DNA of 47,733 nt from a virus. The DNA is taken from the IMG/VR virus record IMGVR_UViG_3300037233_000016, positions 1-47,733 of that record. One strand, 5' to 3'. The notes below the pieces were generated by a model, which was not told the DNA's origin, searched no databases, and saw nothing but the letters and a program-made list of their open reading frames with translations. Both the position numbers and the translations under genes were made by a program. Below are positions 6,054-47,733 of the stretch, one piece after another. Every line of letters starts with the position of its first letter. Position 1 is the first letter of the stretch.

Positions 6054-6340
6054 CCCAGTACACACGTGGTCGTTCAAAAGAGTGGGCCGTGTGTAAGGAA
6101 CTACGGGCTCGGGGCTGGCAGGCCGTAAGGTCTGCTGGCTCGCACGGCCTGTGGGATGTGTCGGCACTCACCCTTGAGGGGAATGCCATCTACATTCAGG
6201 TGTGGTATACGAAGACGCGGGGGTATGAGAAAGATGAGAATGCGCGTCTGTTCCGTGCGTTGAAGGTCAAGCGGAACGTGAGCAAGGAAATGTGGATCTA
6301 TCGCTATGGTATCAAGACACCGGAGATCATCGAGTGCTAA
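6050..6340 (+). CDS. Hjc-like Holliday junction resolvase / PDDEXK nuclease
   Basis: This 96-residue protein stands where T7 places endonuclease I (gp3), the enzyme that resolves branched DNA before packaging. Its pattern is that of the archaeal Hjc-type PDDEXK nucleases: RGRSKEWAVCKELRARGW, then RSAGSHGLWDV with the metal-binding Asp, then IYIQVWYTK. In the family the last motif normally reads xxQVK; here tryptophan replaces the lysine and a Lys follows three residues later. Start is GTG 6050, overlapping the preceding stop. The family call is good; catalytic competence is uncertain because of the substituted residue. Confidence 0.75.
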   Translation: MTQYTRGRSKEWAVCKELRARGWQAVRSAGSHGLWDVSALTLEGNAIYIQVWYTKTRGYEKDENARLFRALKVKRNVSKEMWIYRYGIKTPEIIEC

Positions 6341-6744
6341 TCATTCCACTCCAGATTGTGCAGGGTCTACGTGGCACTTTTGTAGACATGTTGCACACTG
6401 CCATTGACCCCCTGCCCGATACATTCGTTGGCTATCCGCCAGCGTCGGCAGGGCGGCGAAACCTCGCGACGGAAGCGGCGCTGTATGCACAGGGGCGCAC
6501 GACTCCAGGGCAGATTGTGACGTGGGCCAAGCCTGGAGATTCCGCGCACCTGTTCGGCTGGGCACTGGACGTGGCGCTCAAGAGCCCGGCAGGGACGATG
6601 ACATGGGATTACACAGACCCCGCATGGCTGCGGCTCTGGACGGCGATCCGTGCGGCACCCTCCTTGCACTCTGGTCAAGACTTCCCGGCTGGTGAGGCGG
6701 ATGGTGCCCACATTGAACGGCTGAACTGGAGAGAGTATGAATGA
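6334..6744 (+). CDS. Endolysin, peptidase M15 (D-Ala-D-Ala / L-Ala-D-Glu type)
   Basis: The 136-residue protein carries the VanY/M15 zinc-peptidase signature: SAHLFGWALDV (Ser70, His72, Asp79) and DGAHIERLNW (Asp123, His126, with the catalytic Glu nearby). Such enzymes cut the peptide cross-links of peptidoglycan and serve as phage endolysins. It occupies the place of T7 gene 3.5 lysozyme, which is an amidase, so the chemistry has been swapped. Start GTG 6334 has GGAG eight bases upstream and overlaps the end of the resolvase gene. No signal peptide is seen, so release would need a holin. The 3' end overlaps the next gene by eight bases. Confidence 0.88.
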   Translation: MLIIPLQIVQGLRGTFVDMLHTAIDPLPDTFVGYPPASAGRRNLATEAALYAQGRTTPGQIVTWAKPGDSAHLFGWALDVALKSPAGTMTWDYTDPAWLRLWTAIRAAPSLHSGQDFPAGEADGAHIERLNWREYE

Positions 6745-7507
6745 CGCAGCGGTCCTATTTCGGTCCTGGGTCTTCTCTGGGACGCTCGGGCTACTCTGGG
6801 TTCTGCTTGTGCAATTCGGACCCCTGACGGCTCTGGAGCATTTGCTCCCTCCCGAAGACCGGCCAGTGAGCATCACCTTTATGCCCCCACCTGTAGAAAA
6901 CCTCATGCCCGTGAAGTCTGCAACTCTAGGCCATAGGCAGCAGAGGGCTATGGGTGGGGGCACAGCCTTTGGGGGTTCCGCCCCAGTCGGTGATGTGACC
7001 GGACTACTGCGCGGTATTGTAATGGCAACTAACGGCAACATTAATGCCATTGGTGGTAAGGCGGTCCTAGCCTATGGTGAAGGTGGGCAGGGATCTCGGA
7101 CCCCCGGTGTTGTCTCTATGGGTGATGGTACGGCTTCCTTGGGTACGGTGGACGGTGGGGGTGGCCTTGAGCACGCAGGCACGATAGTCGATGGCATCGG
7201 TATTCGCGAACAGCGAATGAGCGGCCCGAAGGGTGATGCAAGCGAGCTAGGGCGCTCGGTCAGAAGTCACGACTCACAGTTGCGCTTCTGCTATACGGAA
7301 GAGGGGCTGAAGGTCAACCCCTCACTGGCCGGAAGTGTCGTGCTGGTTCTGACCCTCGATAGTGGCATTGTCACACGGGCCACGATAGGCCATCGCACTT
7401 GGGTCGGAGCAGAAGAGGTTGAGGCGTGCATCTTGCAGAAGGTTCAAGCATGGCATATGCCGTCCGGTAGTGGGACGTTTGAGTTTTCCCTCAACTTCAC
7501 AAAATGA
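6737..7507 (+). CDS. TonB-like protein with AgmX/PglI-type C-terminal domain
   Basis: The 256-residue product has a short cytoplasmic start, one membrane span (about residues 11-30, WVFSGTLGLLWVLLVQFGPL), a proline then glycine-rich linker (about 45-150), and a C-terminal domain from about 165. That domain reads like the AgmX/PglI or TonB C-terminal fold: LRFCYTEEGLKVNPSLAGSV, then LTLDSGIVTRATI, then VEACILQKVQAWHMP, then TFEFSLNF. The paired Cys of FCY and ACI are typical of that family. Known relatives are cellular envelope-spanning proteins of gliding or TonB systems. Here it overlaps the endolysin gene by eight bases, suggesting a lysis or envelope role such as a spanin substitute. The domain call is firm; the role is inference. 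Confidence 0.78.
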   Translation: MNDAAVLFRSWVFSGTLGLLWVLLVQFGPLTALEHLLPPEDRPVSITFMPPPVENLMPVKSATLGHRQQRAMGGGTAFGGSAPVGDVTGLLRGIVMATNGNINAIGGKAVLAYGEGGQGSRTPGVVSMGDGTASLGTVDGGGGLEHAGTIVDGIGIREQRMSGPKGDASELGRSVRSHDSQLRFCYTEEGLKVNPSLAGSVVLVLTLDSGIVTRATIGHRTWVGAEEVEACILQKVQAWHMPSGSGTFEFSLNFTK

Positions 7508-7539
7508 AAGTAATCCCCCTGTGGGAGAAAATCTTGTGA
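7504..7539 (+). CDS. 11-codon mini-ORF coupling to primase-helicase
   Basis: MKVIPLWEKIL starts inside the stop of the TonB-like gene (ATGA at 7504-7507) and ends with TGA 7537-7539, which overlaps the GTG start of the primase-helicase gene (GTGA). The ribosome site GGAG at 7524-7527, which serves that GTG, lies inside the mini-ORF. It bridges the 28-base gap between two genes as a coupling element. Confidence 0.45.
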   Translation: MKVIPLWEKIL

Positions 7540-9146
7540 GCGAGTCTCAGCAGGTTGGTCCCAAGGGTCCGTGCCCTGATTGTGGTAGCTCAGATGGACT
7601 GGGCACCTATGACGATGGACATACTCACTGCTTCGCTTGTGGGGTAACAACGCAAGCGATGGGCGGCATGGGGAAACCATCCGCCACTAATCCTGATTTG
7701 ATTCCGTTTTCACGACTCACTATTGCACAGCTAGATGATCGTCGCCTATGGAATGAAAGCTGTGCCTTATTTCAGTACGGCTCATTACCAGACGGGACAC
7801 AGGTAGCAACCTACTTTGATAAGGCCGGTAAGCCGGTCGGACAAAAATTACGGAAACCTGGGAAGCAGTTTTCTGTGATTGGGGATGTAACTAAAGAGGC
7901 AGAGCCATATGGGGCGCATCTTTGGCCGCGCACCGGAAAAATGCTTACAGTTACAGAGGGGGAACTGGACTGTATATCAATGGCACAGGCTCAAGGGCTG
8001 AAATGGCCCACAGTCTCTATCTCTTGTGGGGCGGGGCCGCAACTTCGTAAGTATATCGCCACCCATCGTGATTACTTTGCGGGTTTTGAGTCCATCATCT
8101 TGATGTTTGATTCTGATAGCGTGGGCCGTGCCGCAGCAATTACAGCTTGTGAGGTTTTGGCGTTACCTTATGGGCGAGTTAAGATTGCCACGTTGCCGCT
8201 AAAAGATGCATCGGAGATGATCGTTGCACAAAGAGGGGAAGAACTGGTTAATGCGATGTGGAAGGCTAAGGCGTACAGACCTGCCACATTCGTAGACATC
8301 GCAGACATCTCAGCCGACATTCTCAAGGGACCAGCACAGGGGGCACCGTGGCCGTGGCAGAGCTTAACAAAAGCGACTTTTGGGCGAAGACCTGGGGAGA
8401 TTTACACGCTGGGCGCGGGGACGGGTATTGGGAAGACTTCGACATGGCTGCAAGTTGGTTCCGAAATCATACGTGCGGGGGAGAAGGTTGGGTTCATACT
8501 CTTCGAGAACTCCAACAAGGATGCTGGGTTACGTATTGCATCAGCCCTTGCTGGGACGCCCTTCTTCGTACCAGCTTCTTCGGAGAATCCCTGGACGGAA
8601 GCACAGTTGCAGACAGCACTCTCCACACTGGCGGGTAAATGCCTATTGTACGATACGGCCAATGCGGACTGGGAATCGTGTGAGTCGATAATCAGGTATT
8701 GGCACGGAGCAGAGGAAGTTAATCATATAGTGCTCGATCATCTGTCTGCCTTCAGTGCTGAAGAAGCCGATGATCGGAAGGCTCTGGACGCGATCATGTC
8801 CAAACTATCGAAGCTGGTCCAAGAGTTGCAGATCAACGTCTTTCTTATTACGCATCTAAGACGCCCACTCGGAGATAGCCATGAAGAGGGCGGACGGGTG
8901 CGTTTAGACCAATTTCGGGGTAGTAATGCCATTGCCATGTTTAGCAATTTCGCTTTTGGACTGGAGAGAAATCAACAGTCGGGAGATAAGGCGGAACAGT
9001 TGAGACTGACATGGCGTGTGTTGAAAGACCGGAATACCGGGAGATCAACGGGAGATACGTTTCATATGCGGTATGATCCAAATACCGCCCGTCTTGTAGA
9101 AGACGGGGGAACAGGATTTACTCCGGTAGTCAAGGAGAATTTCTAA
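7536..9146 (+). CDS. Bifunctional DNA primase-helicase (gp4-like)
   Basis: The 536-residue protein matches T7 gp4 in order of parts. The zinc-binding primase domain uses Cys13, Cys16, Cys32 and Cys35 (CPDCG...CFAC). A TOPRIM centre follows at 139-145 (VTEGELD) with the acidic LMFDSDSVG. The RecA-like helicase has Walker A GAGTGIGKT at 293-301, a Walker B-like IVLDHLSAF, an ITHLRRP segment and the DQFRGSNAIAMFSNF motif. It synthesises primers and unwinds DNA ahead of the polymerase encoded next. GTG 7536 has GGAG at a spacing of eight; TTG 7533 is the alternative. Length is close to T7 gp4 (566). Confidence 0.96.
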   Translation: MSESQQVGPKGPCPDCGSSDGLGTYDDGHTHCFACGVTTQAMGGMGKPSATNPDLIPFSRLTIAQLDDRRLWNESCALFQYGSLPDGTQVATYFDKAGKPVGQKLRKPGKQFSVIGDVTKEAEPYGAHLWPRTGKMLTVTEGELDCISMAQAQGLKWPTVSISCGAGPQLRKYIATHRDYFAGFESIILMFDSDSVGRAAAITACEVLALPYGRVKIATLPLKDASEMIVAQRGEELVNAMWKAKAYRPATFVDIADISADILKGPAQGAPWPWQSLTKATFGRRPGEIYTLGAGTGIGKTSTWLQVGSEIIRAGEKVGFILFENSNKDAGLRIASALAGTPFFVPASSENPWTEAQLQTALSTLAGKCLLYDTANADWESCESIIRYWHGAEEVNHIVLDHLSAFSAEEADDRKALDAIMSKLSKLVQELQINVFLITHLRRPLGDSHEEGGRVRLDQFRGSNAIAMFSNFAFGLERNQQSGDKAEQLRLTWRVLKDRNTGRSTGDTFHMRYDPNTARLVEDGGTGFTPVVKENF

Positions 9147-13581: not shown

Positions 13582-13901
13582 TGCGCGTTTATGTGGCGGG
13601 ACCCATGCGTGGCATCCCACTCTTCAACTTCCCAGCCTTTGACCATGCGGCCAAGGCGCTTCGGGACCAGGGACATGAAGTCTTTAGCCCTGCGGAACGG
13701 GACCGAGAGGATGGGTTTGATGAGACCATCGTGCGAGAAGTCACCAACGCGGAGTACCGTGCATTTCTGAAGAAGGATCTCCCAATAGTTCTTGACTGTG
13801 AGGCCATGTATATGTTACGTGGCTGGTCACAGTCTACGGGTGCGAGTCTGGAGAGACATACAGGCAGGGCCGTGGGCAATTCCCTGTGGTATCAACCATG
13901 A
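13581..13901 (+). CDS. DUF4406-type nucleoside 2-deoxyribosyltransferase-like protein
   Basis: The 106-residue protein starts RVYVAGPMRG and continues with FDHAAKALRDQGHEVFSPAE and a C-terminal MLRGWSQSTGASLE. This is the DUF4406 pattern, related to nucleoside 2-deoxyribosyltransferases and MTH538-type flavodoxin-like folds. Such proteins recur in phage nucleotide clusters. The pair with the preceding hydrolase-like gene suggests pool adjustment or base salvage. The start overlaps the previous stop (TAATG), and its stop overlaps the next ATG (ATGA). Reaction not proven for phage members. Confidence 0.78.
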   Translation: MRVYVAGPMRGIPLFNFPAFDHAAKALRDQGHEVFSPAERDREDGFDETIVREVTNAEYRAFLKKDLPIVLDCEAMYMLRGWSQSTGASLERHTGRAVGNSLWYQP

Positions 13902-14128
13902 GCCGCCGCCCGCTTCCCCCGCCCGTCTGGAGCAGTCCACCCTTCCTGCTCGGCATACTGATTGGCATAGCCTTCTGTTGGATTCTCTTTATGTTTACCA
14001 TCGTCCTCAACCACTCACCCACTGCCCCCCACCCCATACAATCGGACACAATGCCCGATACCTTGGGACTTCCACCCGCCCCACCTGGGTACCATTGGGT
14101 GCCCGTACCGCCGCCCACCCGCATCTAG
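13898..14128 (+). CDS. Proline-rich single-pass membrane protein, 76 aa
   Basis: Start ATG 13898 overlaps the preceding stop (ATGA). A basic, proline-rich N terminus (MSRRPLPPPVW) is followed by one membrane span about residues 19-40 (FLLGILIGIAFCWILFMFTIVL) and a proline-rich tail (PPAPPGYHWVPVPPP). It is the last gene of the middle region. Proline-rich tails beyond one span recall envelope-bridging or lysis-accessory proteins, but no family is recognised. Confidence 0.6.
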   Translation: MSRRPLPPPVWSSPPFLLGILIGIAFCWILFMFTIVLNHSPTAPHPIQSDTMPDTLGLPPAPPGYHWVPVPPPTRI

Positions 14129-21297: not shown

Positions 21298-21737
21298 TGT
21301 GGAAGAAGGTAAAAGCATACCTGCTACGCTGTGCGCTTGGCCTGGATATGTTCGCCAACGTACTTACAGGCGGGCACCTTGATGAGACGATTAGTTCTCG
21401 CGTCCGTCGTGCATCTGACACACATCCACACACATCAGGTCTGCCCAGCGTGTGGATTGCTAAAGTGCTCAACAGTATGCTCAATGATATTCAAGCGGAT
21501 CATGGTCATCTGGCAGAGCAGGGCGACCTCACCCGTGCAGGGTATGTACAGACGATAGAACAGCAAGCACTCAAAGTCGTGGCCGTTGCGGCAGCACATG
21601 GGGTTGTCATCCCAGTTGCATCTGCCGTTGCTGCTGTAGTTTCCGCACTTCCAACCCAAGCAGAGGCCCCACATGAACCCTGTTCCGCAGCCCCTCCCGC
21701 TTCCAGTTCCAGTTCCGACTCCCACGCAGACCGTTAA
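21297..21737 (+). CDS. Small phage protein of LxLD...GG...ETISSR type, 146 aa
   Basis: The N-terminal part (LLRCALGLDMFANVLTGGHL, then DETISSRVRRA) matches a short motif that recurs in uncharacterised proteins of many tailed phages. A hydrophobic stretch about residues 92-116 (ALKVVAVAAAHGVVIPVASAV) could cross a membrane, and the tail is serine-rich and disordered. It starts in the scaffold stop codon and overlaps the next gene by 65 bases in another frame. The function of the family is unknown; a lysis accessory or minor virion role is possible. Confidence 0.6.
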   Translation: MWKKVKAYLLRCALGLDMFANVLTGGHLDETISSRVRRASDTHPHTSGLPSVWIAKVLNSMLNDIQADHGHLAEQGDLTRAGYVQTIEQQALKVVAVAAAHGVVIPVASAVAAVVSALPTQAEAPHEPCSAAPPASSSSSDSHADR

Positions 21738-22218
21738 TTCGGTTATTGCTGGCATTGATTCCTTGCTCGCTTCGGCGGGTCAGGCTGCATTGTCGGCCAG
21801 CGTTGTCGGTGAAATCGCTACCGTAATTAGTACGTTGCTGCCCTTCTTGGACGAAGTGTTCCCCGGCCTTGCGGCTGTGGGACGCGAGAGCCAGCGTGAG
21901 GATACGCTGTATACCGCGTACAACGCGGGCAACATGGCGGGCCTACTCGCTTACAAGAATGATGTCCCCGCACATCCGAAAGCTAGCCTTGCGATCTGTG
22001 ACCTCTTGATCGCGAAGCTCACGGCTTTGCAGGCCGTTGGTCTGGTCCCTGTTACGACTGTTTCTACAATACCCGCTCAGGTCTCCATTAACTCTCCCGC
22101 CGCCGTTGGCGTGCCGAGTCTCGTTAATGCAGGATCACTTGCGGCTGTGGCAGCAGTAGCCTCAGGACCAGAGAAAGGCCCGCTGAGTATTGGTGGGTCT
22201 CGTATTCTAAGTCATTAG
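21673..22218 (+). CDS. Alanine/valine-rich late protein, 181 aa
   Basis: ATG 21673 lies within the preceding gene's 3' end, where that gene's reading is low-complexity serine. The product opens with a proline-rich stretch (NPVPQPLPLPVPVPTP) and continues with hydrophobic Ala/Val/Leu helices (VNSVIAGIDSLLASAGQAAL; VIVST-like LLPFLDEVFPGLAAV) and a Ser/Ala-rich tail. Located immediately before the capsid leader; probably a capsid-associated protein. No family recognised. Confidence 0.6.
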   Translation: MNPVPQPLPLPVPVPTPTQTVNSVIAGIDSLLASAGQAALSASVVGEIATVISTLLPFLDEVFPGLAAVGRESQREDTLYTAYNAGNMAGLLAYKNDVPAHPKASLAICDLLIAKLTALQAVGLVPVTTVSTIPAQVSINSPAAVGVPSLVNAGSLAAVAAVASGPEKGPLSIGGSRILSH

Positions 22219-33700: not shown

Positions 33701-35449
33701 CATACTACGATGACTGAGTTTACAAAGACACTCATCTATCGCTCATGGGTACGTTCACAGGCCCTTCGCTCTGCTACAGAGCAGAGTATGAATCCTGAAG
33801 AGACTAGCCAACTTGTTAGTAGCCAACTTAAGAATGCCTTTGATCCTGAAGGCAAGGCAATGGGGACAAACATCACGGCTACTGGCGGTCCCTTGCAAGA
33901 TGCTCTCTATCAGGCCCGCCGTGCCTCACTGACTCAGCCACTCGATGGTACACTGATGGGTAAGCGCGTACATGACCTGCTAGAGAAGTACCCACTCTCC
34001 CGTCTTTATGCGGCTCCCTTCCAAAAGATTGGCACGAATGCCTTTTCGGAAACGTGGTCAATGATGCCGGGCCTCGCTGCGGCAAAGGCTAGTGTGCAGC
34101 AGCAGTTTAAGAATGGTGGAGACGATTGGGCACGCGCCTACTCCAATCAGATGATCGGAGCGAGTGCCACGGCCACCCTGATGATGGCTGCGATGCGCGG
34201 ACATTTGACTGGTGCTCCACCCGCAGATAAGGACCTACGTGACCAGCAGGTAGCCAATGGGGTGAAGCCCTATAGCTTTACCTTTGGTGGGGTACGGGTT
34301 CCCCTTGATCGCATCCCCTTTGTTGGATCAATGGTGCAGGATACAAAGGATATTGGTGATGGGGTGTCTGCTCTCCGTGCGCGCCAAGACTCTCAGTTCA
34401 AGTATTGGCAAGAGGCACAGGGCAATAAGTATGCCTATATGGACAACCATCCTGTCTTCCAACATATGCGGCAAATTGCTGACTTTGTATCGGGTACCCG
34501 TGGCACGTTGTCGTCAGATGGTGCAAAAGCACTGTCAGGCATCACACTTAATCTGACAAAGAACTCAACTGATCCCACATGGTTCGGGTCTGTGTCGCAC
34601 CTGCTTGAGATCATAACGGGTGGGGATACTGAAGAGAATGGGGCCAAGCTGGCACAGTGGGCACTGACCGAAGCAAAGACCATGATTACTCCGGGTGCTG
34701 CCTTCTGGAAGAGTATCAACTCGGATGGGATTCATGGTGAAATACGCTCCCTCCTTACAGACCTCAAAATTAAGGCTCCAGGCTATGGCACTGTTGAGCC
34801 CAACTACAATATGTTTGGGTCAGAAGTTGAGGCTCCGCCTGCCTTTGCCGACTGGCAGCAGGATCATCATACCAATCCAGCGCAGAGTTGTATGCAGGGT
34901 GGTCCCGACTGGATACAGACAGCCCTGCTTGCTATGGGTAAGTCTATACCCGGCATCGCAAAGGCCACTCCAGGTCAGGATGGCTTGCCTGATGTGGACT
35001 GGACTGATCGCGGACAATGGGATCAGGAGAAGGGTGCAGAAGGTGTGTCTCCCTATGCGCGCGTTCATCAGCTACTTGCGAGCCCAATGTTCGGTGATAG
35101 AAGCTCAGAGGATGTGGTTCGGGAGATCATGGAGAGCGATGAATATAAGAAGCTTCCAGATACGAACCCACTCATGCCCGATGGTCCACGATACAATATT
35201 ATTGCTGAAGTGATGCAGCAGATGAATGAAGCAGCCATCGCCAAGATGGAGTCAGAACCCCGCTATCACAACTTTGCTTTACAGGTCGAGGCTGCTAAGG
35301 AGCAGAAGGAGACTGGCAAGGAAGCGGCAGATAGTATCACTCATGCAGTACGACACGCTATCCTCGGTGACTCAGCAGCAAAAGTGAATGCACCTACACC
35401 CTCTCAAGGAAGTATGATGCACTGGAATACAACCAGAGGTAAGAAATAA
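30773..35449 (+). CDS. Internal virion protein D-like (gp16-type), largest gene
   Basis: The 1558-residue protein stands where T7 has gp16 (1318), the ejected protein that spans the inner membrane and pulls in DNA. The N terminus is Ala/Pro-rich, with possible membrane-interacting segments (RGVAQFGTLALLTSGGGP; GTMELGIGAAAGVWAAV). I see no lytic transglycosylase motif, unlike T7 gp16. About residues 704-829 hold six imperfect copies of a 17-26 residue unit, F/P-P-x-S-x2-F-x2-AT (for example FPPSSPAFANATDAA). The C-terminal part is helical (RARQDSQFKYWQEAQGNKYA). Start overlaps the previous stop. Confidence 0.82.
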   Translation: MADDAQAGPPAPVQAESTATPAPPAAPPIQKPGTEQAAYNLAQQIKGSAAGTAETEQSAPTIGQKVANIVSDQVDNAKHMHPLNDAEAGITGAGNMLSNLAVAGARKLRPDAMNNALGILSGQKVTSDTPTARVNPYQISPDQMKVAFGEPASWMDNAARGVAQFGTLALLTSGGGPGLTAAADASIGPRVGIAAAKWTLGTAKVGTLMTIGSDPSTPEFFTKQLQQAPRGSVRGYFGNLLGANPLDPDWLAYTRAEGRNLISAGTMELGIGAAAGVWAAVRGGGQPALETFLATAKPAEEDVAEMAHQVDGTVKVSDIPPDVPPGEPLAAPEAEAAPATPSTAWDRRQAETHMLADIERRSGVANRRMQELNTELQGESRRRSYEMAAAEGEPKYAIQQGNSDVFYDNKPPAPTPDVVMPDHGSAEVEVAQRNEAASQREIAAAGPAKYEAGWRELSKAMKAGAHRADIQQILRDHDIRVPYGIPAEDIQSYVHSLGQMIRGTGTGEGTGKTVEQLAKETAESLNPDEPSTTTMGRFRDWFRSGDDPEAKVTGAGLYIRALGHQSNEVGEALGAAPMSPTAQMNVQKMWQTLMELHVPWRGNASRTGSILQAYGGGAEDNAAELEGGRVEAAGAQEGAPAPREAAGEQATEKLAATQSAITLDPEGLREFGQSLRIANGDPSELLEATRQSMIRETLLRNTKWPPMLPHSQAFRDATGIAMEDPRFPKQATSFTNATENAEAAPRSGKQFPPSSPAFANATDAAATPPPRFPPASTGFKNATENVEATPREEQQFGPSSPAFISATGKAMAKDEPPMSSAMFRAATKASQMTEWDKAKASFSMYMINNMIGGVPTYEKVAMSQMFQMLHLPMETFVGGGPYGIRAVKKAIGGDFSGALADTKAGAAMMTQGLDQFAGLVTEANQAMRAAARSLRSGQSHIDPGSVIFPGGRISPEYFDLGQANYLYNVVGAPGRIHTTMTEFTKTLIYRSWVRSQALRSATEQSMNPEETSQLVSSQLKNAFDPEGKAMGTNITATGGPLQDALYQARRASLTQPLDGTLMGKRVHDLLEKYPLSRLYAAPFQKIGTNAFSETWSMMPGLAAAKASVQQQFKNGGDDWARAYSNQMIGASATATLMMAAMRGHLTGAPPADKDLRDQQVANGVKPYSFTFGGVRVPLDRIPFVGSMVQDTKDIGDGVSALRARQDSQFKYWQEAQGNKYAYMDNHPVFQHMRQIADFVSGTRGTLSSDGAKALSGITLNLTKNSTDPTWFGSVSHLLEIITGGDTEENGAKLAQWALTEAKTMITPGAAFWKSINSDGIHGEIRSLLTDLKIKAPGYGTVEPNYNMFGSEVEAPPAFADWQQDHHTNPAQSCMQGGPDWIQTALLAMGKSIPGIAKATPGQDGLPDVDWTDRGQWDQEKGAEGVSPYARVHQLLASPMFGDRSSEDVVREIMESDEYKKLPDTNPLMPDGPRYNIIAEVMQQMNEAAIAKMESEPRYHNFALQVEAAKEQKETGKEAADSITHAVRHAILGDSAAKVNAPTPSQGSMMHWNTTRGKK

Positions 35450-35886
35450 TGCCAATAGGCCACAAGGAACATAAAATCCTTCAGGATCGGCTTGAACATG
35501 AAACGGAGATGCGGAAGTCACAGCAGAAATCTGTTCGCCGCGCTCTCAAACTAGCACTTCGGGAATTGAAACGTCGCCTCAGCGTTCTCAATGGAGAGCG
35601 TGCCCGACAGGATGAAGACCGCCTACTCATGGCAAGCAACACTCGTGTGGATGGTCTAATCAATCAGGCTGAGACTAAATATGAGGCCCTAAGTGCGCGG
35701 CTTCGGGTATTAGAGGATCTACGTCGGATTCAGGAAGGTAGTATAGCTGAGGGACGTGCGGCTATCGATAAGCGTGCAACCGATATGGCGCGTATGCAGT
35801 GGAAGGTTAGCCTTGTGATGACGGGTATCTTCCTGCTCATATCTATTTTAGTAAATGCTGTGTTTCACGTTGTAGTCCCCAAGTAA
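35449..35886 (+). CDS. Coiled-coil protein with C-terminal membrane span; lysis candidate
   Basis: The 145-residue protein is a long charged helix (about 1-115, rich in Arg, Glu, Gln, Leu heptads such as LRELKRRLSVLNGERAR) ending in one span about 121-142 (VSLVMTGIFLLISILVNAVF). T7 places holin 17.5 and i-spanin 18.5 around the small terminase gene, and this gene directly precedes the small terminase. The helix-then-span order resembles XhlA-type hemolysin/holin-associated proteins rather than Rz, which has its span first. Coupled to neighbours by TAATG and direct abutment. Confidence 0.6.
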   Translation: MPIGHKEHKILQDRLEHETEMRKSQQKSVRRALKLALRELKRRLSVLNGERARQDEDRLLMASNTRVDGLINQAETKYEALSARLRVLEDLRRIQEGSIAEGRAAIDKRATDMARMQWKVSLVMTGIFLLISILVNAVFHVVVPK

Positions 35887-40582: not shown

Positions 40583-40801
40583 ATGCCTGGACCAACACCG
40601 CCTACCAGTACCCATGACTACGGTGGACACATGAAGGGTGGCTTCCATGAAGGAACCCGGCGTGATGCGCCGACCGAACGCGGGTCCAGAGAGACCCGAG
40701 AGAAACGGAGTGATAGCACACGGGCATCAGGGAACCTCGGCCCGACTGGTCCCGATGATCCGGCAAACGTTAGTCCCTCAAATCAAGGAGCCGCTGCATA
40801 A
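40583..40801 (+). CDS. Disordered hydrophilic late protein, 72 aa
   Basis: The product is rich in Gly, Arg, Thr, Glu and Pro with no hydrophobic core (TERGSRETREKRSDSTRAS). CGGAGCC precedes the ATG and the stop overlaps the next ATG (TAATG). Similar style to the 42278 product. Possibly a virion-bound linker peptide; unknown. Confidence 0.55.
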   Translation: MPGPTPPTSTHDYGGHMKGGFHEGTRRDAPTERGSRETREKRSDSTRASGNLGPTGPDDPANVSPSNQGAAA

Positions 40802-40986
40802 TGATCTCCCTTATCATCACCCTGGTCATTGTCGGGGTTCTGCTGTACTGTTTCAATGACTTCGTGCCGATGGACCCAAAGTTCAAGAAGCTCATCAATG
40901 TCCTTGTCTGCCTTGCGGCTGCCCTCTATGTCCTTCATGGCTTCGGCTATGGGTCGGACTTCGGGCATCATCACTGGAGAGACTAA
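40801..40986 (+). CDS. Two-span membrane protein, Thivi_2564-like; holin candidate
   Basis: The 61-residue protein has a first span at about 2-18 (ISLIITLVIVGVLLYCF), a loop PMDPKFKKLI, and a second at about 31-48 (NVLVCLAAALYVLHGFGYG). This matches the small membrane proteins annotated as Thivi_2564 family (LIITLIxxGxILYxxNxxIPMDxKxKKxxN). Size and two spans fit a class II holin, and no better holin is seen, so it could release the M15 endolysin. Coupled on both sides by TAATG. Confidence 0.65.
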   Translation: MISLIITLVIVGVLLYCFNDFVPMDPKFKKLINVLVCLAAALYVLHGFGYGSDFGHHHWRD

Positions 40987-43407: not shown

Positions 43408-43494
43408 ATGCGAACGGCAAGCAATATCGCCATTTGGCTTTTTGTCCTATTTACTATGTATGGCATTCTACTCGCGGCTCGGATCGTCAAATGA
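43408..43494 (+). CDS. 28-residue single-span membrane peptide
   Basis: MRTASNIAIWLFVLFTMYGI continues LLAARIVK: one span with a basic residue at each end. AAGGGGAAACAA precedes the ATG. The stop overlaps the next ATG (ATGA), coupling it to the exported protein gene. Confidence 0.55.
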   Translation: MRTASNIAIWLFVLFTMYGILLAARIVK

Positions 43495-43841
43495 CTAGAC
43501 TATATCGCATAGCCTATATCCTTGCCATGCTTGTCGCGTCGGCAGTCAGTGTGCGTGCTCAGGCACCTAGCGCCTTAGTCGGCAAATGGCAATGGCGCTC
43601 GGCAGACACAGCTACGTGTGGTGCGTGCGTCTGGACTATTGACCTGAGAACCAACCACAAAGCTACGGCAGTCTTTCACGGTAATGGGTACGAACGGGCC
43701 TACTACGTCGGCAAGTGGACCACTCATTACGACCTACTATGCTTAGTGGAATATGGGCGTCATACGTGTTGGACGTATGGACTAGTACAGGGTAGTGGTA
43801 ACCTTCAGCTTGATTATCACACATACTATCCGTTGAGGTAG
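43491..43841 (+). CDS. Exported beta-rich small protein, paralogue of the 1792 gene product
   Basis: The 116-residue product starts MTRLYRIAYILAMLVASAVS followed by VRAQA, a signal peptide with an AxA site. The mature part has LVGKW, a CxxC (CGAC), IDLRTNHKATAVF, a GKW strand, LLCLVEYG and HTCWTYG, in the same order as LVGVW, LRANHAAVGV, LCF and YTCYLY in the 1792 product. Likely a periplasmic beta-barrel-like fold held by disulphides. ATG 43491 is chosen for the ATGA overlap; a longer frame upstream would hide the signal peptide. Role unknown. Confidence 0.65.
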   Translation: MTRLYRIAYILAMLVASAVSVRAQAPSALVGKWQWRSADTATCGACVWTIDLRTNHKATAVFHGNGYERAYYVGKWTTHYDLLCLVEYGRHTCWTYGLVQGSGNLQLDYHTYYPLR

Positions 43842-45440: not shown

Positions 45441-45535
45441 CTGACACCACTATGACGATCTGTGCATATGTTGGCGTCGCAATTGGCATAGGCTTACTGA
45501 TCTATTGCTGCTATCTCATTCGTACGGGCAAATGA
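45437..45535 (+). CDS. 32-residue single-span membrane peptide
   Basis: MTDTTMTICAYVGVAIGIGL continues LIYCCYLIRTGK: one span with glycines and a CC pair near its end. ATGA overlaps at both ends. Confidence 0.52.
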   Translation: MTDTTMTICAYVGVAIGIGLLIYCCYLIRTGK

Positions 45536-45690
45536 AGCGCCTAATCATACAAATCATATTCGTATGTGGGGCACTTATCACGCTACTTGCGTATGACTGC
45601 GCGACGACACCACCCGCACCTTGTCCCAACCATATGAGGTCTAAAACTTGTGTCAAAATTGATAGTGTGGGGGTTACAGGTACTCATTAG
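45532..45690 (+). CDS. 52-residue exported or membrane-anchored peptide
   Basis: MKRLIIQIIFVCGALITLLA is a signal peptide or anchor; the rest has three Cys (YDCATTPPAPCPN, TCVKID). The Cys after LLAYD is not a good lipobox, so lipoprotein modification is uncertain. Starts in ATGA overlap. Last of the chained micro-genes before an 87-base gap. Confidence 0.55.
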   Translation: MKRLIIQIIFVCGALITLLAYDCATTPPAPCPNHMRSKTCVKIDSVGVTGTH

Positions 45691-47597: not shown

Positions 47598-47733
47598 ATG
47601 CCTACAACATCGAGGATAGTCAAATCCCATACATCAAGCCAGTAGATAGAGTTAAGTTCGATAGTGCCATTGAGAAGCTACAGAGCCAGGAACTCACTTC
47701 AGAGGGTGAGCTTAACTACATCCTCACTCGGGT
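47598..47733 (+). pseudogene. 5' end of the contig-spanning early gene, frame broken after the start codon
   Basis: ATG 47598 has AAGGAG at a spacing of five, but its frame closes after 15 codons (MPTTSRIVKSHTSSQ). The frame of the conserved protein (IEDSQIPYIKPVDR...) begins at 47609, in another frame, with no ATG, GTG or TTG after its preceding stop at 47579-47581. One extra base, or two fewer, between 47601 and 47608 would join the two. This is either a one-base sequencing fault or a true inactivation. The gene continues across the junction to base 396. Confidence 0.5.
47607..47733. repeat. Contig-end repeat of bases 116-242
   Basis: All 127 bases are identical to 116-242, and the last 26 also equal 1-26. 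This marks the contig as a circular assembly opened inside a tandem duplication rather than at the phage's physical ends. Confidence 0.9.

Follow-up and report, generated by a model that had tools for sequence, protein, structure and literature searches.

Results

Organization of the locus

The window, by which we mean the whole stretch of viral DNA analyzed here (47,733 nt; IMG/VR record IMGVR_UViG_3300037233_000016), carries on its forward strand a gene that runs from an ATG at 6737 to a TGA ending at 7507 and encodes a 256-residue homologue of TonB/TolA/AgmX-like force transducers. A GGAGAG element lies directly 5' of this ATG, which falls within the final codons of an endolysin gene whose stop ends at 6744, producing an overlap of 8 nt. 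An earlier note on this DNA had described the gene as fused by overlap to the endolysin gene; the genes do overlap, but the two proteins are not fused. The endolysin (6334-6744, +) occupies the gp3.5 position and is of the M15 type (L-Ala-D-Glu / D,D-peptidase-like), as indicated by a match to phrog_15351 (E=1e-13) and by the metal-site motifs that can be read in its ORF, the SxHxxGxAxD-like SAHLFGWALD and DGAHIE. GTG 6334 is more plausibly its start than 6292; from this GTG the endolysin would overlap the stop codon of the small gene before it, and this overlap, together with the 8-nt overlap, makes the three genes a tightly packed block. Directly 3' of the transducer gene lies a T7-gp4-like primase/helicase (7470-9146, +; matches to DnaB_C, Toprim and Helic-prim_T7_N), the true start of which is probably near 7539.

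The window represents a T7-like phage, in which a gp2.5-like single-stranded DNA-binding protein (SSB), the gp4-like primase/helicase, a DNA polymerase, an exonuclease and a terminase were recognized by search, and the RNA polymerase, portal and capsid were named from sequence and position. Annotated relatives (Bordetella BB8 and Pelagibacter HTVC031P) show the standard order SSB - endonuclease - lysozyme/amidase - primase, indicating that the new gene is inserted at the gp3.5-gp4 junction. Its adjacency to the endolysin therefore reflects the ordinary T7 gp3.5-gp4 slot and is no evidence of a lysis cassette. The promoter set of the phage RNA polymerase was not recovered by exact k-mers in the window, so that the transcription class is assigned from synteny only.

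A 26-bp repeat is found at 1-26, 217-242 and 47708-47733, and the left end contains a block of ∼216 bp that is partly duplicated; the presence of the repeat at both genome ends suggests a complete, end-to-end assembly with end repeats. A 37-kb sister contig (IMGVR_UViG_3300050138_000058; L002/G001) encodes an identical terminase protein and apparently comes from the same phage population. Its span starts at ∼8.4 kb of the window and includes neither the lysis region nor the transducer gene.

Several other ORFs of the window were recorded. Two putative exported proteins encoded at opposite genome ends (1792-2106 and 43434-43841) are alike by eye (LVGxW...LRxNHxA...) and are possibly paralogues, which would be unusual for a T7-like phage. 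Holin candidates include a 61-residue ORF with two spans (40801-40986) and a 145-residue ORF with a C-terminal span (35449-35886), which precedes the small gene before TerL in a T7 gp17.5-like position. An 80-residue ORF (13886-14128) that overlaps the last part of a DUF4406 gene and has one strong TM span and a Pro-rich tail is a candidate holin or small spanin. A short ORF at 45505-45690, which begins like a signal sequence and continues into a Cys/Pro-rich tail, LAYDCATTPPAPC, has no consensus lipobox and is a weak o-spanin candidate. Three hydropathy spans made the ORF at 21673-22218 a possible ExbB, but it has no Pfam or PHROGs match and was discarded as a candidate.

Protein architecture and predicted fold

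The protein had been read in the earlier note as TonB/AgmX-like and envelope-spanning, with one N-terminal span, and both parts of this reading are borne out. A single membrane span is indicated by hydropathy (aa 6-24) and by the AlphaFold2 model of the full protein, in which aa 3-27 form one helix; the alignment places the TM helix at aa 10-29 (6764-6823, +). Homology suggests an N-in/C-out orientation. With respect to the SHLS motor-binding motif of TonB and TolA, Ser10 is invariant, but the position of the His is occupied by Ser in the phage protein, and by Ser/Ala or other residues in most bacterial orthologues.

The TM helix is followed by a putative strand that resembles the TonB D-box, or motor box (aa 42-53; 6860-6895, +). 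The comparison of the phage segment, RPVSITFMPPPV, with the E. coli TonB D-box peptide, QPISVTMVTPAD, and with the corresponding segment of the closest bacterial homologue, L005, RPINVTFEPPPP, aligns RPVSITFMPPP to QPISVTMVTP with hydrophobic residues at the buried alternate positions, a likeness of sequence pattern only. In E. coli TonB, the proline-flanked D-box is captured by ExbD via strand recruitment (PMC10907165); the same element, named the "motor box" by others, is present in 93% of validated TolAs and has been suggested in all TonBs (PMC12204202).

The remainder of the protein consists of a linker (aa ∼54-164; 6896-7228, +) and a C-terminal domain (aa 165-256; 7229-7504, +). The linker contains a conserved GKAVLAYGxGGQGxRTPG block and is mainly Gly-rich in composition, rather than Gly/Pro as had been noted earlier; in the full-length model, aa 41-164 are disordered (pLDDT <50). 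The C-terminal domain contains two invariant Cys residues (C185 and C231) and is matched at aa 168-247 by the NCBIfam model of the AgmX/PglI C-terminal domain, NF033768, with 48.3 bits (50.7 bits in the genome search; curated cut-off, 40 bits). No family match for the 256-residue protein was found in Pfam (E<=0.1) or PHROGs.

Modeled alone from 13 sequences, the C-terminal domain is predicted with a pLDDT of 85.7 and a pTM of 0.75, and has a helix-helix-strand-strand-helix-strand topology. The structure check proposed in the earlier note supports the TonB likeness: in a Foldseek search of the PDB with this model, the top matches are the TonB C-terminal domains 6sly/5lw8 and the TolA C-terminal domain 2x9a, and the nine best matches are all TonB, TolA or close homologues, with probability up to 1.00 and TM up to ∼0.6, albeit with E-values of just 2e-3 and weaker. 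The full-length model retrieved the same leading families, and a PDB sequence search gave no meaningful match. By prediction, then, the domain has a TonB/TolA-type fold and would be expected to engage a partner in the outer membrane through strand addition.

Bacterial relatives and motor operon

The homologues of the phage protein are chromosomal proteins of Gemmatimonadota. The best of them, L005, shares 46% identity over 284 aa (BLASTP, full length, E=7e-65), a likeness far beyond chance that spans the TM helix, the post-TM segment, the linker blocks and the C-terminal domain; overall identity to the known full-length bacterial proteins is ∼33-46%. Of the 298 Gemmatimonadota genomes sampled, 14 contained a match (E<=1e-8). 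Maximum-likelihood analysis puts the phage protein on a long branch inside the bacterial orthologue clade, with support of 100/100 for the split from the paralogues; the tree does not fix its exact place within the orthologue group.

The L005 orthologue is encoded directly 3' of MotA/TolQ/ExbB, ExbD and ExbD genes (Pfam matches); farther 5' lie genes for a TPR protein and a small exported protein. The order ExbB-ExbD-ExbD-transducer was recovered by tblastn in almost every Gemmatimonadota locus whose flank was long enough, and the TPR gene is present upstream wherever the locus reaches that far. The bacterial orthologue is thus encoded with ExbB and ExbD, as TonB and TolA transducers are with ExbB/ExbD (TolQ/TolR), whereas the phage gene is not: no ExbB or ExbD was recognizable among the phage proteins scanned, a set smaller than the full complement of ORFs.

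The phage protein and the Gemmatimonadota transducers (L005, L006 and L009-L012) are homologous over their full length and share conserved blocks and the same layout of TM helix, D-box-like strand, Gly-rich linker and C-terminal domain. Of the columns that are invariant among 18 bacterial sequences, the phage protein keeps 3 of 3 in the TM helix, 12 of 13 in the linker and 23 of 25 in the C-terminal domain. It differs from these transducers in that its linker is shorter, its gene is orphaned from ExbB/ExbD and placed beside an endolysin gene, and it has no counterpart to the cytoplasmic N-terminus, ∼40 residues long, that its closest relatives carry; another bacterial clade has naturally short N-termini too. 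The codon usage of the gene is closer to the phage (distance 6.8) than to the bacterial locus (13.1), and its GC3 is 0.59, compared with 0.66-0.88 in the bacterial genes. The gene looks resident and maintained in the phage, the intact motifs and the ameliorated codon usage pointing to a maintained function. From the transducer gene alone, we tentatively infer that the phage infects Gemmatimonadota soil bacteria.

Related force transducers provide a framework for this comparison. Like TonB and TolA, the phage protein has a single N-terminal TM helix, a candidate motor-box strand, a disordered linker and a C-terminal domain of the same predicted fold; unlike them, it has no SHLS histidine and no Pfam family match, and its linker is Gly-rich rather than Pro- or Ala-rich. 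It shares the AgmX/PglI (TonBC-like) C-terminal domain with GltG/PglI and GltJ/AgmX of the Agl-Glt gliding machine of Myxococcus xanthus, but it is viral, much shorter, and without an FHA or other cytoplasmic domain. In M. xanthus, GltG is viewed as an arm of the TolA/TonB kind and binds the TolQ/ExbB homologue AglR (PMC5349195), and the AglRQS motor contains two ExbD-like subunits (PMC3169522, PMC5349195). The make-up of the Gemmatimonadota operon is that of the AglRQS plus GltD/E/G core, with one ExbB, two ExbD, a TPR protein and an AgmX/PglI-type arm (PMC3169522).

Search for viral relatives

In the collections searched, the transducer gene is known from one virus only. IMG/VR scans with the single sequence, with a synthetic alignment (A1, which contained rows composed after the family consensus and served just to make search patterns) and with real homologues identified no viral relative of the protein, and neither the exact junction pattern nor the endolysin query returned anything there. 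In INPHARED, tblastn gave chance matches only, over tRNA genes of Caulobacter phages, and a bacterial orthologue used as query gave no match. A plasmid search found no homologue, and no convincing match was seen among the predicted viral structures of BFVD, a weak negative, since lambdoid proteins with a TonB C-terminal domain (CTD) are also absent among the matches listed. The earlier note had looked to homologues beside endolysins in other podoviruses, and none was found in any other T7-like phage examined: no homologue was found in 85 related viral loci, and a comparable protein, with an N-terminal span and a large domain, occupies the last slot before gp4 in 0 of the 54 loci examined for upstream genes.

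A distinct group of phage proteins does carry a TonB-type domain. With an E. coli TonB sequence serving solely as a PHROGs probe, the TonB C-terminal domain was matched by phrog_1267, which PHROGs labels "Rz-like spanin". The members seen are small TonB-CTD lipoproteins encoded 3' of the lysis cassette in phage 21, JLK-2012, PhiR47_2 and a Klebsiella phage (4902-5228 in both L141 and L142, 4869-5237 in L140 and 3902-4228 in L144). In phage 21, the order is pinholin, SAR endolysin, i-spanin, o-spanin, bor and then the TonB-CTD gene. This gene accompanies true spanins, indicating that phage TonB-type domains can adjoin lysis genes without being spanins, and the "Rz-like spanin" label of phrog_1267 looks wrong. 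These lambdoid proteins (phage 21 CPT_21_73, JLK-2012 PP_50 and Klebsiella ST13-OXA48phi12.4) resemble the protein studied here in being phage-borne, with a TonB-type CTD and a location near lysis genes. They differ in coming from enterobacterial phages, in their size (∼108-122 aa), in a lipoprotein signal (LAVGCSQQ, LVMGCTQH) that replaces the inner-membrane helix, and in lacking a D-box and linker. Separately, phrog_34172 matches full-length E. coli TonB (E=2e-164) and may represent bacterial DNA included in a phage record; the att80 site is next to tonB.

Discussion

We have described a phage gene that most likely came from the chromosome of a Gemmatimonadota bacterium and encodes an orphan force transducer, which would be the output arm of a proton motor of the TolQR/ExbBD/AglRQS type. 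What would such an arm do in a phage? On balance, and with modest confidence, we favor the view that the captured arm competes with or hijacks the ExbB-ExbD-ExbD motor of the host; a decoy for the TonB or gliding machinery was among the options raised in the earlier note, and it is the one that our results favor. One helix would anchor the phage arm in the inner membrane, where this helix and the D-box-like strand just outside the membrane would engage the host motor or compete for it; the Gly-rich linker would carry the arm across the periplasm and wall, and the C-terminal domain would occupy the outer-membrane partner of the host transducer. The host motor might thereby be uncoupled, interfered with or redirected during infection, and the phage could benefit if a receptor that depends on the motor were closed to superinfecting phages, or if the envelope were weakened ahead of the endolysin.

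This proposal is supported by the bacterial homology, the position within the orthologue clade, the operon context, the predicted fold, the kept residues, the D-box-like strand and the phage-like codon usage, as well as by the parallel of GltG/GltJ and AglRQS in M. xanthus and by the independent retention of TonB-CTD proteins in phage 21 and its relatives. Exported C-terminal fragments of TonB inhibit TonB function in E. coli. Several observations count against it: the TM helix has no SHLS histidine, though most bacterial orthologues are likewise without it; the D-box match is one of pattern; and a second phage with the gene was not found. The missing ∼40-residue cytoplasmic N-terminus could be needed for motor binding, which would also weigh against the proposal, yet one bacterial clade does without it.

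The preservation of all domains with no obvious inactivation fits a functional transducer no less than a decoy. The gene might accordingly be an auxiliary one that keeps the host motor in operation: with extra transducer supplied after host gene shut-off, nutrient uptake or the integrity of the outer membrane would last until lysis. We consider this unlikely: such a protein must rely on ExbB and ExbD already present in the host, and the loss of the N-terminal cytoplasmic segment of its nearest relatives is hard to square with a faithful substitute.

The tight coupling to the endolysin gene and the envelope-spanning topology raise the question of whether the protein acts in lysis, as a unimolecular spanin-like or outer-membrane-disrupting factor that follows the M15 endolysin and pulls or fuses membranes; the earlier note had suggested a new kind of spanin. 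Spanins such as Rz/Rz1 and T1 gp11 likewise span the periplasm, and the i-spanin likewise has an N-in, C-out inner-membrane helix. The defining spanin features examined are nevertheless absent here, and the protein is built like a force transducer, ending in a folded domain of the TonB type. In place of the helical or coiled-coil periplasmic domain of an i-spanin, the periplasmic part is disordered and Gly-rich and ends in that domain, although some known i-spanins also have no predicted coiled coils (PMC6139136). Nor does the protein resemble a unimolecular spanin, its N-terminal TM helix being without a lipobox and its C-terminus being a folded domain rather than a TM anchor. As had been noted earlier, no standard spanin pair is visible: a pattern scan, which can miss unusual lipoboxes, found no lipobox-like ORF of at least 40 aa on either strand that could encode an o-spanin partner. 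This absence would fit a lysis role, but it is weak evidence, since spanins were not found in 91 of the 677 phages of one survey (PMC6139136). The order of endolysin then primase is normal for T7-like phages, phage 21 has its TonB-domain protein on top of true i- and o-spanins, and the residues conserved in the phage protein are those of the bacterial transducer family. We know of no lysis role for that family. The spanin reading is thus not supported, and a lysis function appears improbable to us.

That the gene is a functionless host fragment, carried as cargo or created by assembly, is suggested by its occurrence in one virus only in the collections searched but is very improbable, as the intact frame, the 8-nt overlap with a phage gene, the phage-like codon usage and the conserved residues kept despite ∼33-46% overall identity argue against both artefact and decay.

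To return to the favored reading of a captured motor arm, a bolder form of it can be entertained as a speculative possibility: a lytic phage may seize the proton-driven ExbB-ExbD motor of its host and turn it against the outer membrane, by energized weakening or receptor shut-off. If true, this would be a form of phage interference driven by the proton motive force, distinct both from spanins and from passive receptor-blocking lipoproteins.

The present gene tentatively links a T7-like phage to Gemmatimonadota, a phylum common in soil about whose phages little is known. Some "spanin" annotations may be wrong, and the phage protein, together with the lambdoid TonB-domain lipoproteins, indicates that TonB-type domains have been acquired by phages more than once. 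Our results suggest that the output arm of the TolA/TonB/Glt motor class can be encoded by a virus that lacks the motor itself. They hint that the envelope motors of the host may be a phage target, for which the phage arm would be a natural, minimal probe of coupling to ExbB/ExbD.
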